Positions 635 to 57,344 of a DNA stretch of 64,000 nt are shown here, in pieces. The stretch is from NCBI RefSeq assembly GCF_000425305.1, contig NZ_AUDE01000024.1:1-64000 (forward strand), in the 5' to 3' direction. The stretch is from Psychroserpens burtonensis DSM 12212 (GTDB taxonomy: Bacteria; Bacteroidota; Bacteroidia; Flavobacteriales; Flavobacteriaceae). Position numbers and translations under genes: made by a program. The notes beneath the pieces are model-generated. The model was not told where the DNA came from, did no database searches, and saw nothing but the letters and a program-made list of their open reading frames with translations. Position 1 is the stretch's first letter, and each line of letters begins with the position of its first letter.

Positions 635-1996
635 TTATTTATTAATGTAAACTGTTTTTATATTTACGAATTCTAATAAGCCTTCCCTAGAGAGTTCTCT
701 GCCGTAACCAGAAGCTTTAGTTCCTCCAAATGGGAGCCTTGGATCTGATTTAACTAATTCATTTATAAAGAAGGACCCATCTTCTATATTTGATACATGT
801 TTCTTAGCATCTTCACTATCCTTAGTAAAAATCATTGTACCAAGGCCTAATTTTGAATTTGAAGCCATTTCATAGGCTTCATTTTTATCTTTAACTTTTA
901 TAATTGAGGCCACTGGACCAAAGGTTTCCTCGTCAAATACAGGCATACCTGGTTCTACTTTTGTTAAAATGGTAGGTTGGTAATACGTTTGATTTCTTTT
1001 ATTTCCGAAGTGAATATTTGCTCCTTTTTCGATAGATTTTTGAACCTGGTCTTCTAATGTGTCTGCAAGATCTTGTCTTGCTAGAACTCCGATATCTGTG
1101 CTCTCTTTAGAGGGATCTCCACAATTAAGTTCTTTTATTTTTGAAGTGAATATTTTGAGAAACTCATCATAAATAGCTTCAACTACTATAAAACGTTTAG
1201 CGGCAATACAGCTTTGACCAGTATTTTGCATCCTAGACTTTATAATAGTAGTCATGTGTTTGTTCAAGTCTGCATCTTCTAGAATAATACAAGCGTTATT
1301 GCCTCCCAATTCTAATACTGTCTTTTTTAAATTTTTACCAGCTATTGCTGCAATTTTTCTTCCGGCTTGTTCACTACCTGTGAGTGATACAGCCTTTATA
1401 ATATCATTTTCAATAATTTTTTCAATTTGATCATGATCTACAATAAGCGTTTGAAAACAACCTTTTGGATATTTTGCTTTTTCAAAAACATCTTGGATTA
1501 TTAAAGCACAACCAGTGACATTTGTAGCATGTTTTAATAGAGCTGTATTACCAGAGGTTAACGCAGGAATGGCGAATCTCATAACCTGCCAAAACGGATA
1601 ATTCCAAGGCATTATTGCTAATATTACACCTAGAGGATCATAACTGATAAAGCTTTCATTTGCTTCTGTTTCTATAAGTTCGTCTGCTAATAGTAAGTTT
1701 GCGTTTTTCTTGTAGAAATCACAGAGGTAAATACATTTTTCTATTTCGGCTTTACTTTCAGAAATAGGTTTCCCTATTTCATCTGTTATAAGTTGACTAT
1801 AGGTGTTGATGTTTTTAGATAATACATCTGCCACATTATCAAGTAATTTTACTCTTTCTTTTACTTCGACTAATTTCCACCTATTGAACACGTCTTTACT
1901 AGTTTCGAGGATCGTAGTCACTTTTTCTGAGGAGAACGTATTATAGCTTTCAATCTTTAAATTAGTGTACGGATTTGTAGTTTCTATTTTTGACAT
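635..1996 (-). CDS. Aldehyde dehydrogenase, succinate-semialdehyde dehydrogenase type
   Basis: 453 residues, the usual length of the short Sad/GabD-like aldehyde dehydrogenases that oxidise succinate semialdehyde to succinate with NAD(P)+ in the cytoplasm. Visible signatures: the PWNYP cofactor-domain motif near residue 130, the SLTGSEQAG nucleotide-loop motif near 204, the general-base glutamate in LELGG (E229) and the nucleophile in GQSC (C263). All catalytic elements are present. The ATG at 1994-1996 starts right at the family's normal N-terminus. No GABA transaminase gene is adjacent, so the physiological aldehyde is uncertain; generic aldehyde detoxification is the alternative. Confidence 0.85.
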   Translation of the reverse strand: MSKIETTNPYTNLKIESYNTFSSEKVTTILETSKDVFNRWKLVEVKERVKLLDNVADVLSKNINTYSQLITDEIGKPISESKAEIEKCIYLCDFYKKNANLLLADELIETEANESFISYDPLGVILAIMPWNYPFWQVMRFAIPALTSGNTALLKHATNVTGCALIIQDVFEKAKYPKGCFQTLIVDHDQIEKIIENDIIKAVSLTGSEQAGRKIAAIAGKNLKKTVLELGGNNACIILEDADLNKHMTTIIKSRMQNTGQSCIAAKRFIVVEAIYDEFLKIFTSKIKELNCGDPSKESTDIGVLARQDLADTLEDQVQKSIEKGANIHFGNKRNQTYYQPTILTKVEPGMPVFDEETFGPVASIIKVKDKNEAYEMASNSKLGLGTMIFTKDSEDAKKHVSNIEDGSFFINELVKSDPRLPFGGTKASGYGRELSREGLLEFVNIKTVYINK

Positions 1997-2166
1997 TTTT
2001 TTTTATAAAGTTAGTGTGTTATAAGAGTTTAGCTTAACTCATTAGAAAAAAGTATTGACCGTTATACATTTCGATTTAAGTCAATATTTAAATCTATAGC
2101 GTTAACCCAGGTTTTAGTTTTTTGTGATATTTGTGTGGAATCAAAAAATAATAAAAATTTAATATC

Positions 2167-2499
2167 ATGGGAAAAGAAAGTAATACAATTATAGGAATTT
2201 TAGCGGGAACGGTAATTGGAGCAACATTAGGAATTTTATTTGCTCCAGATAAGGGTATCATTACTAGACAAAAGATAGCTGATGAAGCGCAATTACAAAA
2301 AGACCGGTTAGCTCATACCGCTACTGATTTGAAAGACCGAGTAACTTCGACCGTAGTTAACCATAAAGATACATTTGATAATCAGTTGGAGACAATAGTA
2401 TCAGATGTTAGTTATAAAGCAGATGATGTCATTAGTACTTTAGAAAAAAAATTAGCTATTCTTAAAGCTAAAAATAAGAATTTACAAAAAACCTCATAA
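2167..2499 (+). CDS. YtxH domain-containing stress protein
   Basis: 110 residues. The N-terminal hydrophobic, glycine-rich segment (residues 8-27, ending in LFAPDKG) is the hallmark of YtxH proteins, named after a Bacillus general-stress protein. It is followed by a charged, predicted helical coiled-coil tail rich in K, D and Q. It probably anchors at the inner membrane. It opens a tight three-gene unit with 3- and 2-bp spacings to the next two genes, which together form a membrane stress module common in Flavobacteriaceae. The biochemical role of YtxH proteins is not known. Confidence 0.85.
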   Translation: MGKESNTIIGILAGTVIGATLGILFAPDKGIITRQKIADEAQLQKDRLAHTATDLKDRVTSTVVNHKDTFDNQLETIVSDVSYKADDVISTLEKKLAILKAKNKNLQKTS

Positions 2500-2502
2500 C
2501 AA

Positions 2503-2853: not shown

Positions 2854-2855
2854 TT

Positions 2856-3056: not shown

Positions 3057-3080
3057 AAGCTTTATGATTTATTCACATTC

Positions 3081-3110
3081 AAAGCACAGATTTTAATCTG
3101 TGCTTTTTTT
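3081..3110 (+). terminator. Rho-independent terminator after the YtxH unit
   Basis: AAAGCACAGATT at 3081-3092 pairs perfectly with AATCTGTGCTTT at 3095-3106, with a 2-base loop and a run of T to 3110. It lies 25 bp after the third gene of the unit. The A-tract on the left would also let it stop leftward transcripts, but no gene points that way here. Confidence 0.9.
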
Positions 3111-3277: not shown

Positions 3278-4321
3278 TTACGCTGCAGATTCTTCTATAA
3301 TCAAATTATTAAGAGCACTCTTTCTATATTCGTTTGGGGTGATACCGTACTTTTCTTTAAAAATTTTAGAAAAGTAACTTCTGCTTGTAAACCCAATACT
3401 ATAAACAACTTGTGAAACATTTAAGTCAGCACTTCTCATCAGTTATCGAGCGGCTTCAAGCCTTATATGTCTAACATATTCTGTGACAGTTCTATTATAT
3501 AAAAACCTAAAACCGTCTTGTAATTTAGCTTGCGATAAAGCAGATTCAATTGATAACTGCTCTAGCGAATAACTAAATGAGGGGTTTTTTATAATCTTGT
3601 CCCCTAATTTTCTAATACCTTTCAATTCTGTTTTAGACAGTGATACTGGTAATTGTACGCCTCTTAAAAATTTATTATGTTGCTCTATATGCAATGATAA
3701 CATATCATAAACAATAGACTCAATTTTTAGGATTCGTACCATCCCTTTAGACTTTATCTTTTTTAGTTTTTTTATGTAGTCAGACATTCTCAAATTTAAT
3801 GCACCATAGTGAGAGAAGCGATTGTCATGGTCCGTATCTACAAAAACATCATATAATCGGTCATTTAATAATGAGACATTAGTTGTTCTTTTTTGTAAAA
3901 ACTTTTTTCTAACAATTTGAATAATATTTACCTCTAATTTTTTATTCTTCGGAAAATGAACATAGTTAAATCCACCTTTCTTATTAGTAAAAATCAACGA
4001 ATGAAATTGCTCTACCAATTTTTCTTCATTATTGATTCCAAATCTATGTTTGAAATCACCGTTATGAGTATAGATAAAACGAATTGGATTAAATTCGGAC
4101 GCTTCAATTTTTAGAATAACATCTTTTGAAAACTCAATATCAAAATCTAATAAGTTAACTCCCCAATCAAATGGGATATACTTAATTGTTCCTTTGACAT
4201 GTTCATTGTCAAAAATAAGATTAAATTCATTTGATGTCTCTATTAGTTTTCCTCCTAACACATCTTGTATTTGACGTAAAGTATCTTTTTGGTTCAAAGT
4301 AATGATATCAATTTCAAACAT
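3278..4321 (-). pseudogene. AraC-family regulator interrupted by an in-frame TAA
   Basis: From the ATG at 4319-4321 the frame runs 292 codons, meets TAA at 3443-3445, then continues in the same frame for 54 codons to TAA at 3278-3280. The reading before the stop ends in RLEAAR; the part after it is LMRSADLNVSQVVYS, then the GFTSRSYFSKIFK signature of the second AraC helix-turn-helix. The stop therefore removes the main DNA-contact helix. One base change (for example from GAA or CAA) explains it. It sits amid stress genes it probably once controlled. A shorter functional product is unlikely; sequence error is possible. Confidence 0.85.
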
Positions 4322-7383: not shown

Positions 7384-7794
7384 TTATATCGTTTTCTTTT
7401 CGTCTATTCCTTTACTGTTCGGTTCTAATAGTTTTTCAATTTCCGAAGGATTAGTTATTTGGTAAAAATTCTTACCTATAATAACTATTGGGTAATTTAA
7501 AACCTCAGGATTGTTATCTAAAACTTTTATCCAGCCATGCTCATCAAGATTTGTTTCTGTATCATACTTTGACGTAAATGCAGGATGCTCACAATCTATA
7601 AGTTCTCCAATTGTTACTCCTAAGTTTTCCGCCAGTTCTTTCCATTGCGTACCTGTAACATTCGTCTTAGTGATATCAATGTCCAATAAATTTTTTAATG
7701 AAGCTTGTAAGTAACCAAGTGTTTGCTTTCCTACATTAGACTTTGAACTATAATATATTTTTATCATTTTATGATGTTTTGATATGATTCCCAT
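7384..7794 (-). CDS. ArsC/Spx-like thioredoxin-fold protein without the catalytic cysteine
   Basis: 136 residues resembling the arsenate reductase (ArsC)/Spx fold: a beta strand IKIYYSSKS, then VTGTQWKELAENLGV and a NYPIVIIGKNFYQI strand near the C-terminus, where ArsC has its substrate-binding segment. The Cys expected in the first loop (CxxC/CxxS region) is replaced by SSKSNVG, so arsenate reduction by the usual chemistry is not possible. Family members of this type appear in flavobacterial stress clusters. ATG at 7792-7794 is used; an internal ATG (MIKIYY) at residue 10 is an alternative. Role unknown. Confidence 0.65.
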   Translation of the reverse strand: MGIISKHHKMIKIYYSSKSNVGKQTLGYLQASLKNLLDIDITKTNVTGTQWKELAENLGVTIGELIDCEHPAFTSKYDTETNLDEHGWIKVLDNNPEVLNYPIVIIGKNFYQITNPSEIEKLLEPNSKGIDEKKTI

Positions 7795-8528: not shown

Positions 8529-8653
8529 GAGGTTAGTTTTTATGCTTGTATTAATTTACAAAAAAATAATGACATGAATTATTGTGATATAAATTACTTA
8601 TGATGTGATAATAACTTTTAATACTTTTAATGTAAGTATTCTATCAATAATCC

Positions 8654-8661
8654 TACTTTTG
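8654..8661 (+). promoter_or_regulatory. Putative Bacteroidota -7 box of trxB
   Basis: TACTTTTG at 8654-8661 fits the TAnnTTTG consensus of primary-sigma promoters in Bacteroidota and lies 26 bp before the trxB ATG. No clear TTTG -33 element is seen at the ideal distance, so this is a match by pattern only. Confidence 0.45.
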
Positions 8662-8687
8662 TTTAGAATAAACTGAATTAAAATAAC

Positions 8688-9665
8688 ATGTCAGATACAA
8701 TAGAAAAATTAAAATGTCTAATCATAGGTTCTGGTCCTGCAGGCTATACAGCGGCTATATATGCTGCAAGAGCAAATATGGAGCCAGTATTATATCAAGG
8801 CACACAACCAGGGGGTCAATTAACGACTACCAATGATGTAGAAAATTTCCCAGGATATCCAGATGGTATCACAGGTCCAGCAATGATGATAGAGTTACAA
8901 AACCAAGCAGCTCGTTTTGGTACAGATATTCGTGATGGTTGGGTGACCAAAGTTGATTTTTCTGGAGATACTCATAAAGTTTGGGTTAATGAAACTAAAG
9001 AAATTCACTGTCAAACCATCATTATTTCAACCGGAGCATCTGCTAAATATTTAGGTTTAGACTCAGAGCAAAAGTATCTTAAACTCGGTGGAGGCGTTTC
9101 TGCTTGCGCAGTTTGTGATGGCTTCTTTTATAGAAATCAAGAAGTTGTTATTGTTGGAGCAGGAGATAGTGCTTGTGAAGAAGCACATTATTTATCAAAG
9201 CTCTGTAAGAAGGTAACCATGTTGGTTAGAAAAGATGAATTTAGAGCTTCTAAAATCATGGCAACTAGAGTAAAAAATACTAAAAACATCGACATACTTT
9301 TCAATACAGAAACTGATGAGGTTTTAGGCGACGGACAAGTAGTAACAGGTGTTAGAGCTATAAATAATAAAACGAATGAGACATTTGAAATTCCAGTAAC
9401 TGGATTTTTTGTAGCGATTGGTCACAAACCAAATACAGATATTTTTAAGAATTTCTTGACACTAGATAAGACGGGTTATATCATTAATACACCAGGAACA
9501 TCTAAAACAAATGTAGAGGGTGTATTTGTATCTGGTGATGCAGCAGATCATGTGTATCGTCAAGCAGTCACAGCGGCAGGAACGGGTTGTATGGCAGCCT
9601 TAGATGCAGAGCGTTACTTAGCAGCTAAGGACTCTGATTTTGAGATATCTACTCCAGTTTACTAA
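8688..9665 (+). CDS. trxB: Thioredoxin-disulfide reductase
   Basis: 325 residues, the usual TrxB length. It reduces thioredoxin with NADPH through FAD in the cytoplasm. Visible are the FAD-binding GSGPAGY (residues 14-20), the redox-active CAVC (C140 and C143), the NADPH-binding GAGDSACEEA, and the C-terminal FAD motif GVFVSGDAAD. The ATG at 8688 follows a plausible -7 promoter element. The gene is monocistronic: it ends in a shared bidirectional terminator at 9685-9719. It is the nearest reductant supplier for the oxidative-stress genes oxyR and dps further downstream, though not co-transcribed with them. Confidence 0.95.
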   Translation: MSDTIEKLKCLIIGSGPAGYTAAIYAARANMEPVLYQGTQPGGQLTTTNDVENFPGYPDGITGPAMMIELQNQAARFGTDIRDGWVTKVDFSGDTHKVWVNETKEIHCQTIIISTGASAKYLGLDSEQKYLKLGGGVSACAVCDGFFYRNQEVVIVGAGDSACEEAHYLSKLCKKVTMLVRKDEFRASKIMATRVKNTKNIDILFNTETDEVLGDGQVVTGVRAINNKTNETFEIPVTGFFVAIGHKPNTDIFKNFLTLDKTGYIINTPGTSKTNVEGVFVSGDAADHVYRQAVTAAGTGCMAALDAERYLAAKDSDFEISTPVY

Positions 9666-9719: not shown

Positions 9720-9748
9720 ATTATATGCACTTCGGAAATGTGCAAACT

Positions 9749-10582
9749 CTACTTTTCTTTCTTTTGTAGTTTAACTGTTCCGATAAAGGTATTAAGTGTG
9801 ATTTTCGGATTTCCGAAGAGGTAAATTTCACTAGATCCAGAAGCGTCAATTGTAATAGCATCTATAACGTCTATATAAACGTTGCTATCCATTTCAGCAA
9901 GAATAGTACAAGTTTTGGTTGTGAAATTCTTTCCGTTTAATTGAGCGTTATTATCTGCTCTAAGATTAAGGTTCGTGATAGTTCCTTCTATAGTTGCACT
10001 AGATCGTTGATATAAATCCATTTTCACATCAGTGGCATTTATGAGTGCATCCATTTTAGTATTATCACTAATTTCTAAAGCAACATTAGTTGCAGTAACA
10101 TTAAGTTTTACTTTGGCTTTTTCTGTACTTATAAAACTAAAAGAATTGGCTTTAATGTTAAGATATGCTCTTGCAGAACCACTCGTTTTTAGAGAGGCAT
10201 TAGTTAATTCTAAGGATGTTAATGAGCGTACTTCGGCATCATCTTTAACTTCAATATTAGAGAAAGCGTCACTGTAATTTACTTTGATATTTAGGCTTCT
10301 AGCGCGTATTTCACGAGAGGTTGTGATCGTGAGAACACTGTCTATGACATTAATTTTTATATACTCGTGGAGATTACTATCTGTTTCAATTTGTACAGAA
10401 GGTTTTTTACTATAAAATAACTCAATATTAAAATCCTCTGCTACAACGATTGTTTGAAAACCATCGATGTAAGTTTGTTCAATCGTTAAATTTCTATCAC
10501 CTTTTATTTTTTCTAGCTCTTGGGCAAAACTGTATGTGCCAAAACCGAAAACGAGTAATAGAATTAAAGTACTGTTTTTCAT
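9749..10582 (-). CDS. Secreted GIN-domain (DUF2807) protein
   Basis: 277 residues from the ATG at 10580-10582; an ATG 63 bp further upstream would put 21 charged residues before a perfectly good signal peptide (MKNSTLILLLVFGFGTYSFA), so the inner start is chosen. The rest is the head GIN domain (DUF2807): an N-terminal DFNIELFY strand set and a series of short beta rungs with D/S/N turns, typical of a right-handed beta-helix. Exported, probably periplasmic or surface-located. It follows a second GIN gene on the same strand but is separated from it by a terminator, so they are likely independent transcripts. Function of the family is unknown. Confidence 0.75.
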   Translation of the reverse strand: MKNSTLILLLVFGFGTYSFAQELEKIKGDRNLTIEQTYIDGFQTIVVAEDFNIELFYSKKPSVQIETDSNLHEYIKINVIDSVLTITTSREIRARSLNIKVNYSDAFSNIEVKDDAEVRSLTSLELTNASLKTSGSARAYLNIKANSFSFISTEKAKVKLNVTATNVALEISDNTKMDALINATDVKMDLYQRSSATIEGTITNLNLRADNNAQLNGKNFTTKTCTILAEMDSNVYIDVIDAITIDASGSSEIYLFGNPKITLNTFIGTVKLQKKEK

Positions 10583-11614: not shown

Positions 11615-12097
11615 TTATTTCATTTGATGATCAAAGCTTATGACACGCTTTAAAAACCATTTGTCGTTTTCTAAAAGCCATAAGTGAGAAAATTTTGCAG
11701 TACTACCAACAACTTTATGTCCGTTGGTTGTTTCAAAAAACTTATGAATCCCGTTTTGTAAGGCGCCATAAATTTTTCCATTGTGTTTTAATAGGAAGAC
11801 TTCTATGCTTTCCTCAACTAATTCTCGAGTTGGCTTTGTGACGCTGTTAGATTTACAGACGCCGTCTTTCATGGTTTGAATAAACAGTTTTTTTGAATTG
11901 GTGATACCTGCAGTATCATGGTAAAATTCAAAATCATCAGAGATGAGTTGATCTAGGTATTGTAATTCACACTTGTTAAATGAGCGCTCAAATATTAAAC
12001 TATCATTAGCTTTTAAAGTTTTATAAACTTCGGAATAGGTCTGTGCATTGATACTGAATCCTATTCCGAAGAAAAATAAAAATAAATACTGTTTCAT
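11615..12097 (-). CDS. Secreted NTF2-like (DUF4440/SnoaL-type) protein
   Basis: 160 residues. A signal peptide (cut after SINAQ, about residue 19) precedes an NTF2-like fold: the cone-shaped domain shows YLDQLISDDFEFYHDTAG near the first strand and a C-terminal strand pair (KFSHLWLLENDKWFLKRVISFDHQ). Such domains serve as ligand-binding or small enzymatic modules; no catalytic set can be named here. Exported. It lies between the PspC gene and the GIN lipoprotein in the same orientation, 31 bp from the latter, and is likely in the same transcription unit. Confidence 0.7.
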   Translation of the reverse strand: MKQYLFLFFFGIGFSINAQTYSEVYKTLKANDSLIFERSFNKCELQYLDQLISDDFEFYHDTAGITNSKKLFIQTMKDGVCKSNSVTKPTRELVEESIEVFLLKHNGKIYGALQNGIHKFFETTNGHKVVGSTAKFSHLWLLENDKWFLKRVISFDHQMK

Positions 12098-12189: not shown

Positions 12190-14043
12190 TTAATTATTGT
12201 CATTATCTGTTGTGATTTTTATGCCATCCTCGTCAATTTCGTATTCGACCTCGCCAGTTTTTGCCTTTATGCCTTTGTCATCAATTTGAAGACTACTGTT
12301 ATTTGACTTTGCTTTGATGCCATCCTCGTTAATTTCTAATCTATTTTCCTCTTCTACATTAACTTCAGTTTTAAACGGTTCTTCGATTGGGCAATCTAAA
12401 CATTCAATTCCATTAGTGATAATTTTAAGATGACGTTCTTCCATATCTTGATCCAAAATATCGTCATAATATGAGCCATTGTAATGATAATTAAATGTGT
12501 TTTCATCTGCATAAAGGATGCTGCCTTCTGGCAAATACAATGTGATATTTACCTCTTGATCTTTTCTAGATTCATTTAAAGGAAGCGTGAAATAACTATT
12601 TAATAATATCGTCTTTCCTTTAACCTCATATGTGTAATCTATTTTTTCTGCTCTTGACATCGCATCAGATACATCGTAGCCCTTAGCTGCGCGCTCTATT
12701 CGTATTTTGGCAATACTATCACTTGTCGTTTTTACAATCAACCTCACACCTTGAGAGAATAATACTTTTTCATCATTCTCGTTATAGGCAGTTCTAAACC
12801 TGTAACTTCTATTGTATTTTGTGGTTAATAAATCATTTTTGTTCATTCTTACTGTGATAGTATCCTTTTTAGTAAGAGAAGCTATTTTTTCGGTTTTTAT
12901 ATATGATCCTTCATCTTGGTAGCTCATTCCAAACCTAGCAAGTGTTACAGCTAATGTAATAAATGCGATTATCCACAGACCTAATAATGTGTATTTAGCA
13001 GTTTTACCAATAGATTTTAGATTAGTAATTAAAATCTTAAGTCCTAAATAGAAGATAAAAAATGCTATTATTCCGAAGAAAAGAAACAGCATCAAAGACA
13101 TCAACCAAACAGGCATTCTTGTGGCATCTGTAACATCAAAGAAATCAACTCCTGGGAAATGAATATTATCCATTAAGTTGACACTAAATAGACTAATGAC
13201 CAATGAAATTATAGTTACCGCACCTACGAACATTAAGATTAACCCAAAAAACTTTGCGAAAATTTTTATAAAGAACATGAATATATTACCAATGGTTTCA
13301 AAAAATGAGCTGGATGTTGATTTTATACGCTCGCCTTGACGAGGTAGATCTGCTTTTTTTACCCCTTCGGAAATAGAATCAGACACATGATCAAAGCTAT
13401 CCTTGATTTTATCACCATGTTTTTTTAAATCTACATTTTGAACTGCGCTGGAGACGCTATCAAATCCGTCCTTGATTTTTTTTTCAATATTGGAGATATT
13501 TACTTGCTCTCCCCTCATCTGTAATTTTTCTGATGTTGTAACTGCTTGAGGAACAAAAATCCAAAGTAATATATAAAGTAACACTCCAGTTCCTGCTCCA
13601 AATATGAGTAATATCCAAATTAAACGAATCCAAAGGGCATCAATACCAAAATAATGAGCTAATCCAGAAGAAACACCTCCAACATAAGAGTTGTCTGGAT
13701 CTCTATATAGTTTCTTTGATGTTGCATTACGCTTACTAGAATAGGTTTGTTGCTGAGGTTCATCTTCAAAAATTTCATCATCAACAAGGTAATCTTCAGG
13801 TTGTCCCATGATTGTGATTACGTCTTCAACCTCTTTATTTCCAATAACTTGTTTTGTATTTTGTACACGTTCAGTAAAAAGTTCTGCAATACGCGCTTCT
13901 ATATCTGAAATAATTTCAGAACGACCTTGAGAGTCTGTAAATGAACGTTTTATAGCCTCAAGATAGCGTTGTAATTTTAAGTATGCATCTTCATCAATAT
14001 GGAAGAATATACCTGCTAAATTTATGTTGACTGTTTTATTCAT
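12190..14043 (-). CDS. PspC-domain envelope-stress membrane protein, large form
   Basis: 617 residues. The N-terminal 100 residues form a charged helical domain (the sort joined to PspC in Bacteroidota), the PspC domain follows at about 112-175 (YRDPDNSYVGGVSSGLAHYF, then a helix ending WIFVPQA), then several transmembrane helices between residues 255 and 375, and a long extracytoplasmic C-terminal part. The tail ends in four related repeats of the form EIDEDGIKI/EINEDGIKA near residues 570-615. It overlaps the PadR gene by one base (ATG/stop overlap), so it is translated with its regulator. Probably a sensor or stabiliser in envelope stress, by analogy with PspC. Confidence 0.85.
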   Translation of the reverse strand: MNKTVNINLAGIFFHIDEDAYLKLQRYLEAIKRSFTDSQGRSEIISDIEARIAELFTERVQNTKQVIGNKEVEDVITIMGQPEDYLVDDEIFEDEPQQQTYSSKRNATSKKLYRDPDNSYVGGVSSGLAHYFGIDALWIRLIWILLIFGAGTGVLLYILLWIFVPQAVTTSEKLQMRGEQVNISNIEKKIKDGFDSVSSAVQNVDLKKHGDKIKDSFDHVSDSISEGVKKADLPRQGERIKSTSSSFFETIGNIFMFFIKIFAKFFGLILMFVGAVTIISLVISLFSVNLMDNIHFPGVDFFDVTDATRMPVWLMSLMLFLFFGIIAFFIFYLGLKILITNLKSIGKTAKYTLLGLWIIAFITLAVTLARFGMSYQDEGSYIKTEKIASLTKKDTITVRMNKNDLLTTKYNRSYRFRTAYNENDEKVLFSQGVRLIVKTTSDSIAKIRIERAAKGYDVSDAMSRAEKIDYTYEVKGKTILLNSYFTLPLNESRKDQEVNITLYLPEGSILYADENTFNYHYNGSYYDDILDQDMEERHLKIITNGIECLDCPIEEPFKTEVNVEEENRLEINEDGIKAKSNNSSLQIDDKGIKAKTGEVEYEIDEDGIKITTDNDNN

Positions 14044-15756: not shown

Positions 15757-16554
15757 ATGAACTCACACGAAATAGACTACAGAATTTACGGAGAAGAAAT
15801 GCAATATGTCGAGATAGAACTCGATCCTGAAGAAGGTGTCATTGCAGAAGCTGGTAGCTTTATGATGATGGATGATGGTATTAAAATGGAAACTATATTT
15901 GGAGATGGTTCTCAAAAAGATACAGGTTTCTTCGGAAAAATATTAGGAGCAGGAAAACGTATTCTCACAGGAGAAAACTTATTTATGACTGCTTTTTATA
16001 ATAATCTTACAGGAAAACGAAGTGTCTCATTTGCATCTCCCTATCCCGGAAAAATTATTCCAATTGATCTTACAGAATATAATGGGAAATTCATTTGCCA
16101 GAAAGATGCTTTTCTATGCGCAGCAAAAGGCGTAAGCATAGGCATTGAATTTTCTAAAAAATTAGGTCGTGGACTTTTTGGAGGTGAAGGTTTTATCATG
16201 CAAAAGCTCGAAGGTGATGGTATGGCATTTGTGCATGCAGGTGGAACCACAGCAAGAAAAATATTAGCATTAGGGGAAACATTGAGGGTGGATACTGGAT
16301 GTCTTATTGGTTTTACACAAGATGTAGATTATGATATTGAATTTATTGGAGGTATCAAGAATACCGTTTTTGGAGGGGAAGGTTTATTCTACGCGAAATT
16401 GCAAGGTCCAGGAGTTGTATATATACAATCGTTACCATTTAGTAGATTAGCTGGTCGTGTAATAGCTTCATTACCAAGAGGAGGCAATAGTAAAGGTGAA
16501 GGAAGTATTTTAGGTGGTTTGGGTAATATTTTGGATGGTGATAATAGGTTTTAA
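15757..16554 (+). CDS. TIGR00266/AIM24-family protein
   Basis: 265 residues of the AIM24/TIGR00266 family, a double beta-barrel of pseudo-threefold symmetry. Typical landmarks are [20 protein letters not shown] near residues 20-39, [17 protein letters not shown]-like segment near 86-100, the [15 protein letters not shown] repeat near 140-155 and its echo [15 protein letters not shown] near 207-221. The protein ends with a glycine-rich tail (GGLGNILDG). In mitochondria AIM24 affects membrane organisation; the bacterial role is unknown. No membrane segment or leader. Confidence 0.9.
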
Positions 16555-18053: not shown

Positions 18054-18533
18054 ATGACAACTAATAGTATAGGTTTAGATACCAAGAAGACAAAAGAAAT
18101 TGCTGATGAGTTAAATTCGCTCTTAGCAAATTTTCAAATATATTACCAAAATTTAAGAGGAATTCATTGGAATATTAGGGGAAAAAGGTTTTTTGATTTA
18201 CATCCTAAGTTTGAGGAATTGTATACAGATGCCAATCTTAAAGTAGATGAAATTGCAGAACGTATTTTAACACTTGGTGTAACACCCTTGCATACGTTTG
18301 AAGATTACTCTAAAGCAGCCAAAGTGCCTGTGGGTAAGAACATTTCCGAAGATGAAAAAGCAGTACAACTCATCGTGGGTTCACTTTATGAATTATTAAA
18401 GATAGAGCGTCAAATTTTAGATGATTCTGCTGAAGCTAATGATGAAGGAACAAACTCAATGATGAGCGATTTTATTACCGAACAAGAGAAAACAGTTTGG
18501 ATGATGAAAGCTTGGTTAGGTGAAAGCATCTAA
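18054..18533 (+). CDS. dps: Dps-type DNA-protection ferritin
   Basis: 159 residues, the standard Dps length. Landmarks are NLRGIHWNIRGKRFFDLHPKF-type ferroxidase region (HWN at about residue 42, then D and H/E residues near 52-66: FDLHPKFEEL, DANLKVDEIAERI). Dps forms dodecamers that oxidise Fe2+ with H2O2 and coat DNA. Its divergence from oxyR implies peroxide induction. It ends at a clear terminator (18559-18595). The start at 18054 gives a normal N-terminus. Confidence 0.93.
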   Translation: MTTNSIGLDTKKTKEIADELNSLLANFQIYYQNLRGIHWNIRGKRFFDLHPKFEELYTDANLKVDEIAERILTLGVTPLHTFEDYSKAAKVPVGKNISEDEKAVQLIVGSLYELLKIERQILDDSAEANDEGTNSMMSDFITEQEKTVWMMKAWLGESI

Positions 18534-29371: not shown

Positions 29372-30100
29372 TTATTTCTTCGGAAGGTATAATTCCATTT
29401 CATTAAATTCAGCCATGTCTAAATGACCCATTTTACGTTCATCTTTTGTAATTAGATGTAGATGTAAAAAAGAGTCATGATGAGTGAAAACTCCTTTATG
29501 TTCGGTTGAAAAGAAACCTATAATTACGACCTCTTCATTTTTTAAATTATAATTTGTTTGCCCTTTGTGCGCCTCTTCTGGTGAGGACACGTGAGTTCCT
29601 TTCGGTAAGTTTTGGATATGTATGATTGCTTTTGATACGTCTCCTTTTAATTTAAACGCAAATGGCCGTTTGTATTCAATTGTTTTCTCGTCAATGAATT
29701 TTTCCAAGTCTTGTATTGACTTAATACCTGAAGGTAAATCAATTTTGTGCCATTCAGTTACATTTCCATAAACGAAAAACGGTGCAGATACATCAAAGTT
29801 TTTTTCGACTTTCATTGTAGAATCTGTTAATACTTCTGATACATAGGCTTGTCCGTCATTGATCAGAATTTCTCCTGTCAAGTAGCTCTCAGGTCCAATA
29901 CCATAAAGACCTTTTTGGTTTGTAATAGAATCAAGATTTATAATACCTTCCAACTCTCCTTTCCACATTACATTTTTCATAGCTCCAGTAATTTTAATAT
30001 CAGAGTATGTTTCTAGTTCTAAATTAGTCGATTTAGTATTTTGGTTACAGGAAACCAATACAATCAAAAAAAGTCCGAATGATATATGTTTTATTTTCAT
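29372..30100 (-). CDS. Acetolactate-decarboxylase-like lipoprotein
   Basis: 242 residues. A lipoprotein leader (cysteine in LIVLVSCNQ at residue 18) is followed by the alpha-acetolactate decarboxylase fold: GIINLDSITNQKGLYGIGPE near residue 52, EILINDGQAYVS, and the zinc-site motif LHLHLITKDERKMGHLD (HxH and a third H). The GFR segment that carries a catalytic arginine in BudA/AlsD-type enzymes reads GFFSTEH here, so the arginine seems lost. Export by a lipoprotein signal is also unusual for this cytoplasmic family in fermenters. Enzymatic activity is uncertain. Confidence 0.75.
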   Translation of the reverse strand: MKIKHISFGLFLIVLVSCNQNTKSTNLELETYSDIKITGAMKNVMWKGELEGIINLDSITNQKGLYGIGPESYLTGEILINDGQAYVSEVLTDSTMKVEKNFDVSAPFFVYGNVTEWHKIDLPSGIKSIQDLEKFIDEKTIEYKRPFAFKLKGDVSKAIIHIQNLPKGTHVSSPEEAHKGQTNYNLKNEEVVIIGFFSTEHKGVFTHHDSFLHLHLITKDERKMGHLDMAEFNEMELYLPKK

Positions 30101-36341: not shown

Positions 36342-37099
36342 AGGGTTCTTAAAAATTGAGTAAATGCTTTTTTAGCCTTTTCAAATTGAGCGTTATCAAT
36401 ATCAAACTCACCATACCAAATGTAATTATAGAGGTAGGAGGTATATGAGAATTCTTCTTTTGTGTCTTTATTTTCTATTTCGAGATAGTAATCACTATTC
36501 GTTTTTTCTACATCATAGTCTATGACTTCTGCTTCAGAAAGTGACTTTAATAACCACAAGTAGTAGTACCGAATAGCAAGTCTGTAATTGTCTTCTTTTT
36601 CGGCTTCTGCGATGAGTGATTTAAAGTCGGTTTCGTAGATATTATTCTCGAGATCTGTAACAGGAATAATAGTCTTATCACTAGATTTTCCGAAGATCCA
36701 ACTTCCTTCTTTGTTAATAATAGCCTTCACGATAAAGAATACGACCAATAGAAAAATAACGACATAAAAAATCTTTAAGATGATGTCAGTAATATCTGCA
36801 GCTTTAGCATCACTATTGATATCAAATAAATTTTTAAAAAAATCTGATAGCCATTGTTTAAATCGTGTCCATATTCCAGAATTGTCTACAGTACGCTCAT
36901 AGATGAATTCATTGCCCTCATAGATGTCTTTGAGGTTGTCAAATTCGCGTTTATCAATAGGTGCTGTGTCAACATATACTGAGTCTTGCATGGTTTGCAA
37001 TGGTGCAGTTGTATCGATAGTTACTGTGTTTGTATGCAAGGAAATTCCGAAGAAAAGAAGGACGATATGTAAGAAGAATATTCTACTCACCAGATCCAA
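36332..37099 (-). CDS. DUF4129 membrane protein
   Basis: 255 residues with a leader helix, a periplasmic stretch, one transmembrane helix (IILKIFYVVIFLLVVFFIVKAI, near residues 108-129) and a C-terminal DUF4129 domain with AEKEDNYRLAIRYYYLWLLK and EFSYTSYLYNYIWYGEFDID. DUF4129 domains are found as the C-terminal part of transglutaminase-like or MoxR-linked proteins; the transglutaminase part is absent here. Overlaps both neighbours in the operon by 10 and 17 bp. Confidence 0.82.
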   Translation of the reverse strand: MDLVSRIFFLHIVLLFFGISLHTNTVTIDTTAPLQTMQDSVYVDTAPIDKREFDNLKDIYEGNEFIYERTVDNSGIWTRFKQWLSDFFKNLFDINSDAKAADITDIILKIFYVVIFLLVVFFIVKAIINKEGSWIFGKSSDKTIIPVTDLENNIYETDFKSLIAEAEKEDNYRLAIRYYYLWLLKSLSEAEVIDYDVEKTNSDYYLEIENKDTKEEFSYTSYLYNYIWYGEFDIDNAQFEKAKKAFTQFLRTLWK

Positions 37100-41130: not shown

Positions 41131-41177
41131 GGTTTCTTCGGAAAGGTGAATTTATTTAAACAATCTCTAATAATTCT

Positions 41178-41641: not shown

Positions 41642-42256
41642 ATGTTTTTTCAAGTCATAGATATTTTAGGAACTATTGCCTTTGCTATTTCGGGAGTATT
41701 GGTGGCTCTTGATAAAAAAATGGATCCTTTTGGTGTACTCATTATTGCATTTGTAACTGCGGTAGGAGGTGGGACGTTACGTGATGTTATGATTGGGATT
41801 AATCCTGTGTCATGGATGACTAATATGACCTACGTGTATGTGATTTTTGGTTCAACCGTATTTGCAATTTTACTTCGGAATAAAATCAACTACCTAAGAA
41901 CGTCTCTCTTTTTGTTTGATACTATTGGGATTGGATTATACACGGTTGTTGGCATAGAAAAAGGATTAGTTGCAGGTTTACATCCCATTATTTGTATTGC
42001 ACTTGGAACAATGACAGCTTGCTTTGGTGGTGTGATTCGTGATATTTTATGTAATGAGATTCCAGTGATTTTTAGAAAAGAAGTCTATGCGACCGCGTGT
42101 ATTCTCGGAGGTCTAACGTACTTTTCACTTCGTCTATTTATGGCAAATACTAACTTGATATTTATAATTGCGATAATAGTTGTGATTGTAATACGACTTA
42201 TTGCGGTTAAGTTTAAAGTGAGTTTACCTAGTTTGTATAAAAAGGAACAGGTCTAA
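41642..42256 (+). CDS. TRIC-type cation channel family protein (UPF0126)
   Basis: 204 residues, seven hydrophobic helices in two similar halves. Each half has the UPF0126 signature: AFAISGVLVALDKKMDPFGV with GGGTLRDVMIG in the first, and GMTACFGGVIRDILCNE-type segment (core GGVIRD) in the second. Bacterial TRIC proteins form trimeric monovalent-cation or amino-acid channels in the inner membrane. Stop codon directly abuts the stop of the converging NTF2-like gene (42256/42257). Confidence 0.92.
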   Translation: MFFQVIDILGTIAFAISGVLVALDKKMDPFGVLIIAFVTAVGGGTLRDVMIGINPVSWMTNMTYVYVIFGSTVFAILLRNKINYLRTSLFLFDTIGIGLYTVVGIEKGLVAGLHPIICIALGTMTACFGGVIRDILCNEIPVIFRKEVYATACILGGLTYFSLRLFMANTNLIFIIAIIVVIVIRLIAVKFKVSLPSLYKKEQV

Positions 42257-45978: not shown

Positions 45979-46334
45979 TTATTGAAACGCAACATCATTA
46001 TCAGTATGTTGAATTGAGATGTAAAAATTTGAAGACCTGCGTGTTCCAACTTCTTTATATTCTAAATAGCTATATTTTTTGTAAAGCTGTTTAATTTTAT
46101 CTTGATTAATCAACCCAATACGATCTCTTTTACTTTCGAAAACCGCCCATACTTTTTCAAACCCGTGAGCTTTTATGAGTCTTTGAGTGGGCACTTCTGC
46201 ATAGTGTTAGTCTAAGGTAAGAATAGCATCAAATTGAGTACTTATTTCCTTTTTATTTACTTCGGAAATGTACTCTGATTTACAATTAATAAGTAAAAAA
46301 AAGACAGGATTAGAAGGGTGATTATAATGCTCAT
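45979..46334 (-). pseudogene. Small lipoprotein gene with a frameshift and an in-frame stop
   Basis: ATG at 46332-46334 opens a leader MSIIITLLILSFF; adding one T to an 8-T run continues it as LLINCKSEYISEVNKKE, a clean lipobox. The frame then meets TAA at 46207-46209 after FDAILTLD and continues as HYAEVPTQRLIKAHGFEKV to the stop at 45979. Two lesions in one short gene make decay more likely than error. The product was a lipoprotein of about 118 residues of unknown family. It lies between a heptamer array and a degenerate region. Confidence 0.75.
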
Positions 46335-46406: not shown

Positions 46407-48560
46407 TTATTTTACAGGAACAGGAAATCCGCGATCTATCATCAACGCTTCAATCTGAGCATCACGACCTCTAAATAGGCGATAGGCTTCCGCAGGATCC
46501 ATAGAGTTTCTAGGTGCAAATAAATACTTCACAAGTTTATCTGCTACCGCCTTGTCGTAAAAACCACCTGGAGCTTCTTTAAACGCTTCGGAAGCATCAC
46601 TTGTTAAGACATCTGCCCACATGTAACCGTAATATGCAGTAGCATAGCCTTCACCAGAAAACACATGACCAAATTGTGGTGTTCTATGACGCATTGGTAA
46701 TTCGTTTGGCATGTTTAATTCAGCTAACGTTTCACGTTCAAATTTGTCAATATCGATATTTGTTGGATCGGCTAAATGTAATTTCATATCCATTAATGCA
46801 GATGCTAGATATTCTGTAGTCTCAAAACCTTGATTAAATGTTGACGCTTTTTTGATTTTCTCTACTAATGATGCCGGAATTGGCTCACCAGTTTCATGAT
46901 GCACTAAAAACTGATTAATCACTTCATCTGTAGATAACCAACGTTCTAATAATTGTGATTGGAACTCTGTATAATCTCTTACTCCACTATTTAAAGTTGG
47001 ATACTTCACGTTACTAGAAAAGAAATGTAGTGCATGACCAAATTCATGAAAAAATGTTGTCGCATCATCCCAGGATACTAAAACAGATTCTCCAGGAGCT
47101 GGCTTTACAAAATTAGAATTGTTAGAAGCTAAGACATTAGTTTCGCCTTTGTAAGACGTGTAACTTCTATACGTTGTTGCCCAAGCACCAGACCGCTTAC
47201 CTTCGCGAGCGTAAGGGTCTAAATACCAAAGACCAATATGTTTTCCAGAATCTTTATCTGTGACTTCCCAAACAGTAACATCTTCATGAAATACAGGTAC
47301 TTTCCCTTCTTCGACTGGTGTGAATTTATAATTAAACAGACGACCAGCCACATAAAACATAGCATCGGTTAATTTATCTAATTGTAAATATTGCTTCACT
47401 TCGTCGCTATCCAAATCATATTTTTTCTGACGTACTTTTTCAGCATAATAACGATAATCCCAGGGCTTAATTTTGAGCCTATCTCCACTAGTATTGGCAA
47501 CCGTTTGCATATCTGCAACTTCTTCGTTCACACGAGCAATAGCAGCTGGCCAAACAGCCATCATTAAATCCATGGCACGCTCTGGTGTTTTAGCCATACG
47601 ATCTTGGAGTCTCCACTGTGCATAGTTGTCATAACCCATTAGGCCAACGCGTTCTTTACGCAGTTTTAAAATGGCTGTAATAATGGCATTGTTGTCGTAA
47701 TCATCTGCATTATCACCTCGTGAGTAGTAGTTGGTCCAAACGATTTTTCTCAGTTTTCTTTCTGTTGAATAGGTTAAGAAAGGATCCATTGATGATCGCG
47801 AATTCGTAATCGCATATGTACCATCTTCTCCTTTGTCTATTGCTATTTTTGCCGCAGATTTAATAAAAGATTCAGACAATCCACCTAACTGATTTTTATT
47901 CAAATACGTGACGTAGTTTTCTTCGTCGTGTAATACGTTGTTAGAAAAATCAGTGTATAAAGAAGATAATTCTTTGTTGATAGCTGCATAGCGTGTTTTT
48001 TGTTCAGCGTTTAGATTAGCGCCATTCATTTCAAATCCTTTGTATGTTAAATCAACTACACGTTGCTGATCTGCTGGTAAAGGATTGTTTTGAGACGCAT
48101 TATAAACAGCTTGGACACGTTGAAATAATTTTTCGTTTTGGGATATTTTAGAGTTGTAGTCTGATAATTTAGGTGCCAATTCACCTTGAATATTTCTAAA
48201 CTCTGGAGATGACATATTGCTACTTAAGATACCGTAATAGGTAAACACATGATTAAGTGTATTTGCAGAAGCCTCTAAAGGCACGATTGTATTCTCAAAG
48301 GTAGCTGCTTCTGCGTTGTTTAAAATGGTTTCAATGTCTTTAAGACCGAGTTCCATTCCCGTTTCCACAGCGTCTTTAACATCTGCAATAGTCATTTTGT
48401 CAAATGCAGGAAGTCCTTGATATGGGCCTTTCCATTTTTGGAGTAATACATTATCGGTATCGTTCATAACTATTTTTTCTTCGAAATTTTTATCGTCCTT
48501 ACACGTAGAAAACAGAACGATACTGAATATAAATGCAGCTTTTAGGGGTTTTGAGATCAT
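46407..48560 (-). CDS. M3-family metallopeptidase (Dcp/oligopeptidase type) lipoprotein
   Basis: 717 residues from ATG at 48558-48560; an upstream ATG at 48578 only adds six residues before the leader MISKPLKAAFIFSIVLFSTC. Lipobox cysteine follows. The zinc motif HEFGHALHFF (HExxH) is near residue 505, with GSGAWATTYRSYTSY-like segment (core RSGAWATTYR) before it and the C-terminal FSGEGYATAYYGYMWADV typical of M3 (thimet-type) enzymes. It cleaves short peptides, here probably in the periplasm. Its gene is flanked by heptamer tandem arrays on both sides. Confidence 0.9.
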   Translation of the reverse strand: MISKPLKAAFIFSIVLFSTCKDDKNFEEKIVMNDTDNVLLQKWKGPYQGLPAFDKMTIADVKDAVETGMELGLKDIETILNNAEAATFENTIVPLEASANTLNHVFTYYGILSSNMSSPEFRNIQGELAPKLSDYNSKISQNEKLFQRVQAVYNASQNNPLPADQQRVVDLTYKGFEMNGANLNAEQKTRYAAINKELSSLYTDFSNNVLHDEENYVTYLNKNQLGGLSESFIKSAAKIAIDKGEDGTYAITNSRSSMDPFLTYSTERKLRKIVWTNYYSRGDNADDYDNNAIITAILKLRKERVGLMGYDNYAQWRLQDRMAKTPERAMDLMMAVWPAAIARVNEEVADMQTVANTSGDRLKIKPWDYRYYAEKVRQKKYDLDSDEVKQYLQLDKLTDAMFYVAGRLFNYKFTPVEEGKVPVFHEDVTVWEVTDKDSGKHIGLWYLDPYAREGKRSGAWATTYRSYTSYKGETNVLASNNSNFVKPAPGESVLVSWDDATTFFHEFGHALHFFSSNVKYPTLNSGVRDYTEFQSQLLERWLSTDEVINQFLVHHETGEPIPASLVEKIKKASTFNQGFETTEYLASALMDMKLHLADPTNIDIDKFERETLAELNMPNELPMRHRTPQFGHVFSGEGYATAYYGYMWADVLTSDASEAFKEAPGGFYDKAVADKLVKYLFAPRNSMDPAEAYRLFRGRDAQIEALMIDRGFPVPVK

Positions 48561-48913: not shown

Positions 48914-49030
48914 TAGGAAAACAGTAAGATATTAAGTGTTTCCGAAGAAAAAAATCATTTGATTGTACGAAATAAGAAACAAGTACGCCATATGAGTAAG
49001 CTTTGTGTCTCTGCACCTTTGCGATAAAAA

Positions 49031-49738
49031 TCAATCCAAAATCTCAACACGTCGTATGTATACATTTTTAAGAGGCCAGTCTGAATCGTCTGTATCTACA
49101 TTTGCAATTTTATCAGCGACATCTAAACCGCTAGTTACTTTTCCGAAGATGGTATAATCACCATCCAGCTCATGCACATCTCTTAGCATGATAAAAAACT
49201 CATAGGGTGACGCCAGTTTATACGGATTTTCAATATCACTACTAGGCATAGAAATGACACCTCGATCATGATGAAAACCACGTTTTGTATCTGTTGGTAA
49301 TAAGTATTTGCCAATATAGCGTCGCTTGCGCATCACCTCTCTATTATCTGTACTACCACCTTGAATGATGTAATTTTCTATCACTCTGTAAAATTGAGTA
49401 TCATTAAAATAGCCTTTTTTTGCTAGGTAAATAAAGTTAGAACGGTGAAACTTTGTTTCGTTAAACAGCAGGATGTCTATGTTGCCATAATCAGTCACAA
49501 TGCGAACTTTATTCTCTTTATGTCTTTTGTCATATTCTAAAAAGAATTCCATCGCATTGTCCTTATTCAATAGGAATTCTTTTTGATTATCCTCAGGGAT
49601 TGTATCTGTTTTTAATGCTTTAGATTCCTTTTTTATCTGCGTAGAATCTATTGCTTGGGTAGGTGTTTTCTTTTGAGATTGTTTATCTTCACAATTGAAA
49701 ATCACCAAACACAATACTGTCATTATAAAAAACCTCAT
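49031..49738 (-). CDS. Cyclophilin-type peptidyl-prolyl isomerase, lipoprotein
   Basis: 235 residues. Lipoprotein leader with cysteine in LVIFNCEDK. A charged linker (residues 25-75) leads to the cyclophilin domain: VTDYGNIDILLFNETKFHRSNFI near 83-105, FYRVIENYIIQGG near 117-129 (the F..V...F.IQGG signature), YEFFIMLRDVHELDGDYTIFGKV near 178-200. It assists folding of exported proteins in the periplasm. It is divergent from the NUDIX gene with only 6 bp between starts, so their promoters overlap the opposite coding regions. Confidence 0.92.
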   Translation of the reverse strand: MRFFIMTVLCLVIFNCEDKQSQKKTPTQAIDSTQIKKESKALKTDTIPEDNQKEFLLNKDNAMEFFLEYDKRHKENKVRIVTDYGNIDILLFNETKFHRSNFIYLAKKGYFNDTQFYRVIENYIIQGGSTDNREVMRKRRYIGKYLLPTDTKRGFHHDRGVISMPSSDIENPYKLASPYEFFIMLRDVHELDGDYTIFGKVTSGLDVADKIANVDTDDSDWPLKNVYIRRVEILD

Positions 49739-55033: not shown

Positions 55034-55190
55034 ACATTATTGAATTTCTCAAAAATATGCAATTCGGTATTGATTTTTGACAATTGAGTCATATAGAATT
55101 TTATTAGTTGCGATTGTTATTCATTTTTGACCTATCAATTAACACTGAAAATAGTTCAGTACAAGAAACGAATAGTTAAAATAATCAACC

Positions 55191-57344
55191 ATGAGTAAAT
55201 TAATCACTCTTATCGCAATCTTCATCTCATCAATGACATATGCACAAACCATTATTAAAGGAAAAGTGATAGACACCAAAAATCTAGCCGTTTTTGGAGC
55301 CAATGTCTACCTAGATGGCACTTATGACGGAGCTACAACAGACGAGAACGGAAACTTTAAGTTTACTACGCAAGAAACGGGAACACAACGCTTAATCATT
55401 TCGTTTTTATCATACGAAACAAAGACCATGATAAGAGATGTGTCAACCTTTAAAGATGTTAAAATTGTATTGCAAGAGGATATGGAGTATTTGGATGCCG
55501 TTATCATTTCGGCAGGAACTTTTGAGGCTAGTGATAATAGCAAAGTTTCGGTTTTAAAACCATTAGATGTCGTAACAACAGCAAGTGCATTAGGTGATTT
55601 TGTTGGAGCCTTACAAACATTGCCTGGAACATCTACTGTGGCAGAGGATGGTAGACTGTTTGTGAGAGGAGGAGATGCCGATGAAACTCAAATTTTTATT
55701 GATGGTATTCGTGTGTTTACTCCCTATTCTCCGGTTCCAAATAATATTCCAACACGCGGTCGTTACTCGCCTTTTCTGTTCAATGGGATTACATTTTCAA
55801 CAGGTGGTTACTCTGCAGAGTATGGTAATGCACTCTCTAGCGTACTATTATTAAATACCGTTGATGAGCCAGATCAAGAAAAAACTGAAATTGGGATTAT
55901 GACCGTTGGAGCTAGTCTTGGTCGTACCGAGAAATGGGATAAAACATCAGTGAGTGTTAAAGCGTCTTACACTAATTTAGGACCTTATGTTGCCTTGTTT
56001 CCAGATCGTAACGAGTGGAAAAAACCCTATCAAGGTGCTCAAGGTGAAGCGGTCTTTCGGCAGAGGTTTAATAACGGAATCCTAAAGTTCTACGCAGCTT
56101 TTGACACGGCTAGTTTCGATGTAATACAAGAAGATATTAATACTCCCGACGGTGTGAGATTCAAACTCAATAATAGAAACTTTTATGGGAACACCTCATA
56201 TCAAGGTATTTTGGGTAAAGGTTGGTCCATAAACACAGGATTGAGTTATACTATTGCTAAGACAGATTTCTCATTTATTGATAATGATATTAGTGATACT
56301 GAAAATTCTGCTCATGTAAAATTGAAATTTAAAAAACGATTCAACAGCAGGTTTAAATTGTATTTTGGAGTAGAGCATTTTACAACTAAGTTTGATGAGC
56401 ATTTTTCTTCGGAAATCGTCTCACCCGTAAGCTATGGCTTTAATAGTAATAACTCTGCACTTTTTGTCGAGTCAGATATCATATTTAGTAAAAAATTCGC
56501 GGCAAAAGTAGGAGTAAGAGTAGATAGATATGAGCTGTCTGATGAGTTTCAAGTGGCGCCAAGAGTATCATTTGCTTATAAAACATCTAAAAATGGACAG
56601 TTATCAATGGCTTACGGAAGTTTCTACCAAAATGCAAATAGTAGTGCTTTGAAGTTTGAACAAGATGTAAAATCACAAAGCACAAAGCACTACATTATGA
56701 ACTATCAATTTGTAAACGACGGACGCTTATTTCGTGCAGAACTCTACAGAAAAGAGTATGATAACTTAGTGAAATTTGATACCGCTTTTGAAAGTTTTGA
56801 AAGTAATTATGATAATTCTGGATCTGGTTTTGCACAAGGTTTAGACATTTTTTGGAGAGATAATAAGAGCATCAAAAATGTAGATTATTGGTTGAGCTAT
56901 TCGTATTTAGATACAGAACGTGATTACCGCAATTTCCCTACTAAAGCACAGCCTAACTTTGCGAACACGCATAACTTCTCTGCTGTGGCTAAGTACTGGA
57001 TTGAAGATTGGAAAAGTCAAGTAGGTTTTAGTTATACGTATGCCTCTGGACGACCGTTTACAAATCCAAATACTGAGAATTTCTTAGGAGATATGACAAA
57101 GAGTTTTAATAGTGTTAGCCTTAATTGGGCATATTTAATCTCACCACAAAAGATTCTATACCTTTCTGTAAACAATGCTTTAGGGTTTAAAAATATCAAC
57201 GGATATCAATATGCAAATACACCAGATATCAATGGTGATTTCGCAAGACGCTCTTTAAAACCAGCAGCAGATCAATTCTTCTTTATCGGTTTCTTTTGGA
57301 CGATTAGTGAAGATGGCAGTGATAACCAGTTAAATGATCTTTAA
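55191..57344 (+). CDS. TonB-dependent receptor with carboxypeptidase-regulatory domain
   Basis: 717 residues. Signal peptide (MSKLITLIAIFISSMTYAQ), CarboxypepD_reg-like domain (residues 20-95: IIKGKVIDTKNLAVFGANVY, TTDENGNFKFTT), plug (DFVGALQTLPGTSTVAEDG, RLFVRGGDADETQIFIDG) and an outer-membrane barrel. Substrate unknown. No STN domain, so this receptor is for transport rather than signalling. It is followed 92 bp later by a TonB protein gene on the same strand, a likely dedicated energy partner. Confidence 0.92.
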   Translation: MSKLITLIAIFISSMTYAQTIIKGKVIDTKNLAVFGANVYLDGTYDGATTDENGNFKFTTQETGTQRLIISFLSYETKTMIRDVSTFKDVKIVLQEDMEYLDAVIISAGTFEASDNSKVSVLKPLDVVTTASALGDFVGALQTLPGTSTVAEDGRLFVRGGDADETQIFIDGIRVFTPYSPVPNNIPTRGRYSPFLFNGITFSTGGYSAEYGNALSSVLLLNTVDEPDQEKTEIGIMTVGASLGRTEKWDKTSVSVKASYTNLGPYVALFPDRNEWKKPYQGAQGEAVFRQRFNNGILKFYAAFDTASFDVIQEDINTPDGVRFKLNNRNFYGNTSYQGILGKGWSINTGLSYTIAKTDFSFIDNDISDTENSAHVKLKFKKRFNSRFKLYFGVEHFTTKFDEHFSSEIVSPVSYGFNSNNSALFVESDIIFSKKFAAKVGVRVDRYELSDEFQVAPRVSFAYKTSKNGQLSMAYGSFYQNANSSALKFEQDVKSQSTKHYIMNYQFVNDGRLFRAELYRKEYDNLVKFDTAFESFESNYDNSGSGFAQGLDIFWRDNKSIKNVDYWLSYSYLDTERDYRNFPTKAQPNFANTHNFSAVAKYWIEDWKSQVGFSYTYASGRPFTNPNTENFLGDMTKSFNSVSLNWAYLISPQKILYLSVNNALGFKNINGYQYANTPDINGDFARRSLKPAADQFFFIGFFWTISEDGSDNQLNDL

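Follow-up and report, generated by a model that had tools for sequence, protein, structure and literature searches.

The window analysed here, a 64,000-nucleotide stretch of Psychroserpens burtonensis DSM 12212 (contig NZ_AUDE01000024.1, positions 1 to 64,000), is strongly enriched in the octamer TTCCGAAG and its complement CTTCGGAA. It forms the core of an oriented element that extends further, in which TTCCGAAG is followed by an A-rich tail reaching to about position +22, and its copies are conserved at orthologous positions more than fourfold above background. Abundance of the motif is clade-restricted, being found in only some Flavobacteriaceae, and the genera concerned differ in the variants they tolerate, like dialects. 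By analogy with known systems, we propose that the motif, core plus A-rich tail, acts as a DNA-uptake-type signal, a function to which we assign a probability of about 55%. An earlier note on this DNA had reported the octamer and offered several explanations, among which an uptake sequence fits best; the A-rich tail, the dialects and the clade restriction were absent from it.

An exact search of both strands found 25 copies in the window, one more than the 24 (12 per strand) reported before. Twelve are on the plus strand as TTCCGAAG, at 1003–1010, 7441–7448, 9811–9818, 12064–12071, 13071–13078, 18344–18351, 32905–32912, 32979–32986, 36688–36695, 37045–37052, 48940–48947 and 49141–49148, and thirteen are on the minus strand as CTTCGGAA, at 3947–3954, 9730–9737, 12028–12035, 13365–13372, 15930–15937, 23089–23096, 23155–23162, 29378–29385, 41136–41143, 41873–41880, 46260–46267, 46586–46593 and 56407–56414, which is still a near-even split. 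The copy at 3947 had been missed, and 22 of the earlier positions were right, while 1013 and 48941 should be 1003 and 48940. The copies at 12064–12071 and 48940–48947 carry an A-rich tail, and the base after the final G is A or T in 22 of the 25 copies, in line with the 21 of 24 counted previously. With a window GC content of 32.0% (about 33% had been claimed), the expectation of about one copy was borne out: 100 dinucleotide shuffles gave a mean of 0.98 and a maximum of 3, and a third-order Markov model, from which no other 8-mer in the window departs so far, gave 0.96. The empty end at 56.4–64 kb, to which the earlier note drew attention, is not unusual, since 25 points placed at random leave a gap of 7.6 kb or more in 77% of cases. 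The poverty of copies in acquired DNA is not significant within the window. The next over-represented 7-mers of the window that do not overlap the motif are GGGTTTT/AAAACCC (30 vs 10.6 expected) and GTTCCTG/CAGGAAC (12 vs 3.0).

The excess persists outside the window, which upholds the earlier suggestion of a genome-wide signal at the DNA level. The window's own genome (G000; 3.98 Mb in 68 contigs, with the window at C19:1-64000) contains 1,060 octamer copies (509 on one strand and 551 on the other), as compared with 173 (79 + 94) for the octamer read backward, a control pattern without CpG and not matched in composition. A further 40 kb of this genome held 13 copies. The excess also survives the third-order model in G008, a single-contig genome of the genus Psychroserpens with 2,174 copies, where a sample of 42 stretches of 20 kb (840 kb) contained 448 sites against 21.4 expected. 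The closest named relatives of a MoxR-type protein encoded in the window, 92–95% identical, are from Arcticiflavibacter luteus and uncultured Psychroserpens.

Alignment of the 448 G008 sites showed that position −1 is usually T or C and rarely G, with T favoured and G avoided, and that the columns from +8 to about +16 are A-rich, fading by about +22. A similar A-rich tail, with G avoided at −1, was present in G299, which has the maximum count in another genus (2,678 copies). In G008, the frequency of A following the motif was 0.69 at +9 and 0.73 at +10, compared with 0.35 and 0.30 for other NNNCGAAG words, and G299 showed the same trend; as the tail is lacking after other GAAG words, it belongs to the motif. 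In the own genome (38 copies), the mean A frequency over +8 to +23 was 0.484, against a background of 0.338. These features bear on whether a defence system might use the octamer as a target for modification or self-marking, or whether it might be a methylated repeat like HIP1 (highly iterated palindrome 1). Restriction targets are usually avoided, not enriched, and the octamer is not palindromic, whereas the HIP1-type octamer is, while its tail is long, degenerate and asymmetric; such a target is thus an improbable explanation, even though over-represented words can be methylation targets, as described for HIP1 in cyanobacteria (PMC6604393). Separately, a viral contig of 45% GC (L335; IMG/VR contig IMGVR_UViG_3300042934_000426) carries 21 copies of TTCCGAAG in 13 kb, mostly as CTTCCGAAG and mostly without an A-rich tail.

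The share of motif copies inside genes roughly matches the share of coding DNA, with 395 of the 448 G008 sites inside simple open reading frame (ORF) calls and a coding fraction of 0.90 in the sample. That most copies are inside genes would suit a coding, RNA or repeat artefact, such as a favoured peptide, a CUUCGG hairpin or a dispersed repeat family, and CTTCGG is the core of a stable tetraloop, which counts for the hairpin. However, the copies within genes use both orientations (181 in gene sense, 214 antisense) and several reading frames, and the flanks past about −15 and +22 are near background in G008 and G299, so that an artefact of this kind is extremely improbable. The frames are used unequally in G008, NNT TCC GAA GNN being the commonest (138), which we take for codon tolerance. 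No bias of copies toward gene ends was seen in the G008 sample. The poorest two of the 42 G008 stretches had 0 and 1 copies, against a mean of 10.7, and both are defence islands: L113 (G008:C1:1728001-1748000) and L119 (G008:C1:2880001-2900000), which contain type I restriction and GmrSD-type genes, and type I genes with a TIR-STING protein.

Conservation was assessed in 14 loci of Psychroserpens and near relatives together with the window, 15 sequences in total. Orthologous sites were intact in 480 of 1,066 comparisons (0.45), which are directed and non-independent, whereas the value for CG-containing 8-mers of equal GC was 0.094. A smaller set, which comprised only 10 of these 14 loci, gave an intact fraction of 0.51 (698 comparisons) against 0.11. 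By target, the result ranged from 12 of 76 intact (L016) up to 49 of 69 (L011).

The even strand balance had been taken to argue against a replication-polarised signal. Given that whole-genome strand totals balance for any signal, a test of polarity must be local, and one 64-kb window alone cannot exclude polarity; the replichore test in G008, with the G-rich strand taken as leading, nevertheless agrees with the earlier conclusion. The two GC-skew halves of G008 had 114/102 and 118/114 sites, and 228 of 448 (51%) were on the G-rich strand. Mixed strands were also found among the matches listed, which covered 100 of 125 sites on one contig. These results argue against a replication-polar signal resembling KOPS (FtsK-orienting polar sequences) or AIMS (architecture imparting sequences), because the strands are mixed in sequence stretches and neither GC-skew half of G008 shows a bias. 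AIMS and KOPS are likewise octamers with a proposed chromosome-wide role, but in AIMS a strand bias increases toward the terminus (PMC5993296), and the octamer described here has no strand bias in G008.

The same strand counts bear on a Chi-type recombination hotspot read by an AddAB-like helicase-nuclease, whose co-evolution with its enzyme would give clade inheritance and over-representation. The octamer is non-palindromic and over-represented, its presence follows general descent (see below), and like-oriented G008 copies are depleted at 300–900 bp spacing, as if one per direction sufficed locally, all of which would fit such a hotspot. Co-orientation with replication, usual for Chi although not universal, is missing in G008, and counts are near control in some congeners and most of the family. 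RecC (PF04257) was found in 0 of 78 genomes, with a positive E. coli control, a result that speaks to RecBCD, no AddAB search having been made; a RecBCD-read Chi was rejected on this basis. To our knowledge, neither a long A-rich tail nor a free base 6 is a known feature of Chi. Taken together, we consider a Chi-type site quite unlikely.

The spacing of the copies was also analysed. Neighbours 300–1,000 bp apart in G008 were in opposite orientation in 86 cases and in the same orientation in 33, a value as high as this arising in 0 of 2,000 permutations, and strand splits per 20 kb were under-dispersed (chi-square 16.2 on 41). Pairs of copies less than 100 bp apart whose tails point toward one another were few, with 2 against about 6 expected in G008 and 1 against about 5 in G299. 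For the spacing pattern in G008, a direction-dependent action may be one possibility. The alternation would also fit a binding site of a chromosome-structuring or nucleoid-associated protein occurring about every 1–2 kb; the copies are dense and strand-symmetric, and their oriented A-rich tails could bend DNA. However, the alternation was not repeated in G299 (35 opposite, 36 same) and did not show in the small number of pairs from G000 (1 opposite, 3 same), and in G008 it was weaker once TTCCGNAG variants were counted. Counts that vary nearly eightfold within the genus and drop to chance level in the loci of other genera are also hard to reconcile with a housekeeping role, and a structural site of this type appears unlikely.

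The 23 genomes of the genus ranged from 278 to 2,174 copies, while their backward-control counts lay between 118 and 376. Within the family, 33 of 299 genomes had at least 500 copies (hand count), and among those 33, G095, G117, G177 and G305 were below twice their own control, as was G053 with a ratio of 1.97; most of the 299 were near or below the control as judged by eye. A draw of 247 genomes from the phylum, searched with the pattern TTCCGAAGAA, gave 440 for G000 and none above 97 for any other genome. Since G000 was its sole motif-rich genome, this draw informs on other families, in which the highest count was 73. Across the 65 named loci taken from other genera (L023–L088, with the motif-rich L047, which has 10 copies, left out and L009–L022 analysed apart), TTCCGAAG occurred 30 times against 29.2 expected. 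No dialect was seen in these 65 loci of motif-poor genera, whose pooled 8-mers mostly reflect shared genes. In two genomes of genus g11, G032 and G263, the octamer occurred 7 and 5 times against 54 and 60 for the backward control, as if avoided.

The dialects concern base 6 of the octamer. In G008, the forms with A, C, T and G numbered 448, 150, 104 and 28, with 21, 14, 13 and 6 expected, whereas only the A form was in excess in G299. When TTCCGYAG was counted genome-wide in the 299 genomes, it exceeded the A form in G121 (760 vs 526) and G277 (636 vs 516), while the corresponding numbers were 292 vs 2,678 in G299 and 816 vs 2,099 in G084 of the same genus. The variant TTCTGAAG reached up to 1,383 copies (G061) in several genomes outside Psychroserpens, within a range that overlaps low genomes, and in G299 the tails were not A-rich after TTCTGAAG on that strand but were A-rich after TTCAGAAG.

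Taken together, the core with its oriented A/T-rich flank, the symmetry between strands, the tolerance of copies within genes, the dialects and the patchy spread among clades match uptake sequences better than they match Chi, KOPS/AIMS, HIP1-like or structural sites. As in uptake sequences, the motif has hundreds to thousands of copies, no general orientation bias (G008) and a core with an A/T-rich extension (G008, G299 and the own genome), an arrangement also found in the Haemophilus uptake signal sequence (USS) (PMC7811141). The USS of Pasteurellaceae share with it a short core, a flank that is oriented and A/T-rich, a copy number per genome in the hundreds to thousands over both strands, a mostly intragenic location and variants among relatives (PMC7811141, PMC2346458). 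They differ in belonging to another phylum and having an unrelated core; the octamer also lacks a gene-end bias in G008, and 23 of 31 motif-rich genomes have no match to a pilus platform gene. The DNA uptake sequences (DUS) of Neisseriaceae are likewise genome-wide, strand-symmetric and intragenic, with dialects between related genera, but their core is unrelated to the octamer and they are read by the minor pilin ComP (PMC3868556, PMC3630211). In the sources cited here, the readers of USS and DUS, shown or predicted, are type IV minor pilins (ComP, ComN), and such tags are known from two groups of Pseudomonadota. We therefore file the motif as working like USS/DUS and not as a member of this class, because most of the high genomes searched have no match to the pilus platform gene and a role in uptake is a proposal. 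No paper containing the word TTCCGAAG, or defining an uptake sequence in this group, was found in the open-licence literature searched.

According to our proposal, the element, consisting of TTCCGAAG with T or C usually before it and an A-rich stretch of about 15 bases after it, would function in the manner of DNA uptake sequences. Motif-bearing DNA would be preferred by a DNA receptor on the cell surface that belongs to a natural transformation machine, such DNA would enter cells and recombine more frequently, and copies would accumulate through biased uptake, with selection acting only against protein damage. The machine would be of the Bacteroidota type as in Riemerella, with an outer-membrane barrel, a DUF5689 lipoprotein and ComEC, and in most motif-rich genomes it would not be a type IV pilus. 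Riemerella species are naturally competent and require homologues of these genes (PMC8459023, PMC7965970), and their transformation involves ComEC, DprA, ComF and RecA plus four proteins for which other uptake machines have no homologues (PMC8459023). The CarboxypepD-reg barrel and the DUF5689 lipoprotein of the genomes studied here are homologues of two of these four proteins, and ComEC together with the barrel/lipoprotein pair is present in G000 and nearly all tested Flavobacteriaceae. R. columbina, which belongs to another genus, prefers its own DNA, and Riemerella has no defined uptake motif, the published k-mer table holding only A/T-rich words (PMC7965970). More broadly, and only as a tentative idea, Bacteroidota might possess uptake dialects that are read in most of these genomes by an outer-membrane porter and surface lipoprotein pair instead of a type IV pilus, and many flavobacteria would then carry out self-selective transformation through a mechanism that evolved independently. 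If our proposal is true, self-recognising DNA uptake would extend to a distant bacterial group, the motif would be a marker for flavobacteria that are or were competent, and the contrasting dialects inside one family would serve as a natural experiment in the search for the receptor. Should the function be different, the motif would still be a strong genome-wide DNA signal of which we found no report in the open-licence literature searched.

The transformation genes were searched in 78 genomes, hand-picked among the 23 of the genus and the 299 of the family; 35 were high (count/control of about 1.9 or more) and 43 low, with G003, G010 and G014 set as low; G223 is 68% and G079 80% complete. ComEC was found in 75 of the 78 (34/35 high, 41/43 low) and DUF5689 in 74 (34/35 high, the sole match of G079 being weak, and 40/43 low), while 70 of the 71 loci inspected for the barrel contained a match. 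In G000 and G008, the CarboxypepD-reg barrel and DUF5689 lipoprotein genes are adjacent, beside a divergent endonuclease-family gene. The complete genome G052 has neither ComEC nor DUF5689 and carries 91 octamer copies, a background level, whereas its congener G277 has both genes and 516 copies; being one pair, with most motif-poor genomes keeping the machine, this is consistent with the uptake reading and not a proof of it. When dialect difference was compared with barrel distance in Mantel tests on 24 of the 35 high genomes, allowing for ComEC distance, the partial r was 0.40 (p 0.007), as one of twelve correlations run, which weakly favours the barrel as the reader of the motif. Without four extreme genomes r was 0.20 (p 0.13), and a second dialect measure, based on TTCTGAAG, did not correlate with barrel distance. 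In several genomes, a single open frame contained two or three DUF5689 matches (G277:C1:1646231-1648153; also G304, G094, G135, G097, G068, G024 and G140).

Several observations weigh against the uptake proposal, beginning with the make-up of the backward control described above. In seven other high genomes with 7 to 40 sites each, the 16-column tail had an A average of 0.34–0.41 over backgrounds of 0.28–0.32, which is not above the 0.398 (background 0.338) found after the 30 copies in motif-poor loci, so that G008, G299 and the own genome are the only ones in which the tail is established. Some targets show little conservation, with 17 of 83 intact in L020 as well as the low value in L016, and data on uptake or transformation for these bacteria were not found in the literature. 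The machinery is nearly as common in genomes without the motif and thus does not explain its presence. On trees of matched sets (40 of the 78 genomes, 24 high and 16 low, hand-chosen, with long-branch and near-duplicate rows left out), the motif label changed 5 times for ComEC, 6 for the barrel and 8 for DUF5689, against about 12.7 each when shuffled. The label thus fits the ComEC tree best, which indicates that the motif follows general descent and not exchange of the proposed receptor pair. Two genomes of the genus, G002 with 1,520 copies and G003 with 278, share a divergent barrel/DUF5689 pair. Finally, the platform gene T2SSF/PilC was unmatched in 23 of 31 high genomes, whereas the known readers of USS and DUS are type IV minor pilins; absence here mostly means not being among the 62 genomes listed, for one gene and with no pilin search made.

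The DUF5689 proteins of the divergent pair, at L202 in G003 and L205 in G002, are 31–33% identical to that of G008, and the pair groups with other genera, which suggests an exchange of the barrel/DUF5689 pair. Such exchange as the cause of motif presence was not supported by the label trees or by a 70-genome comparison. A type IV pilus as the determinant was not supported either, since T2SSF/PilC does not track the motif, being matched in 8 of 31 high genomes, G000 among them, and in 8 of 40 low ones. In G000, a PilC-like gene (L148, G000:C36 around 8621-9589) lies beside two short ORFs with pilin-like starts, as judged by eye, and the species of the window may have a pilus or pseudopilus system.

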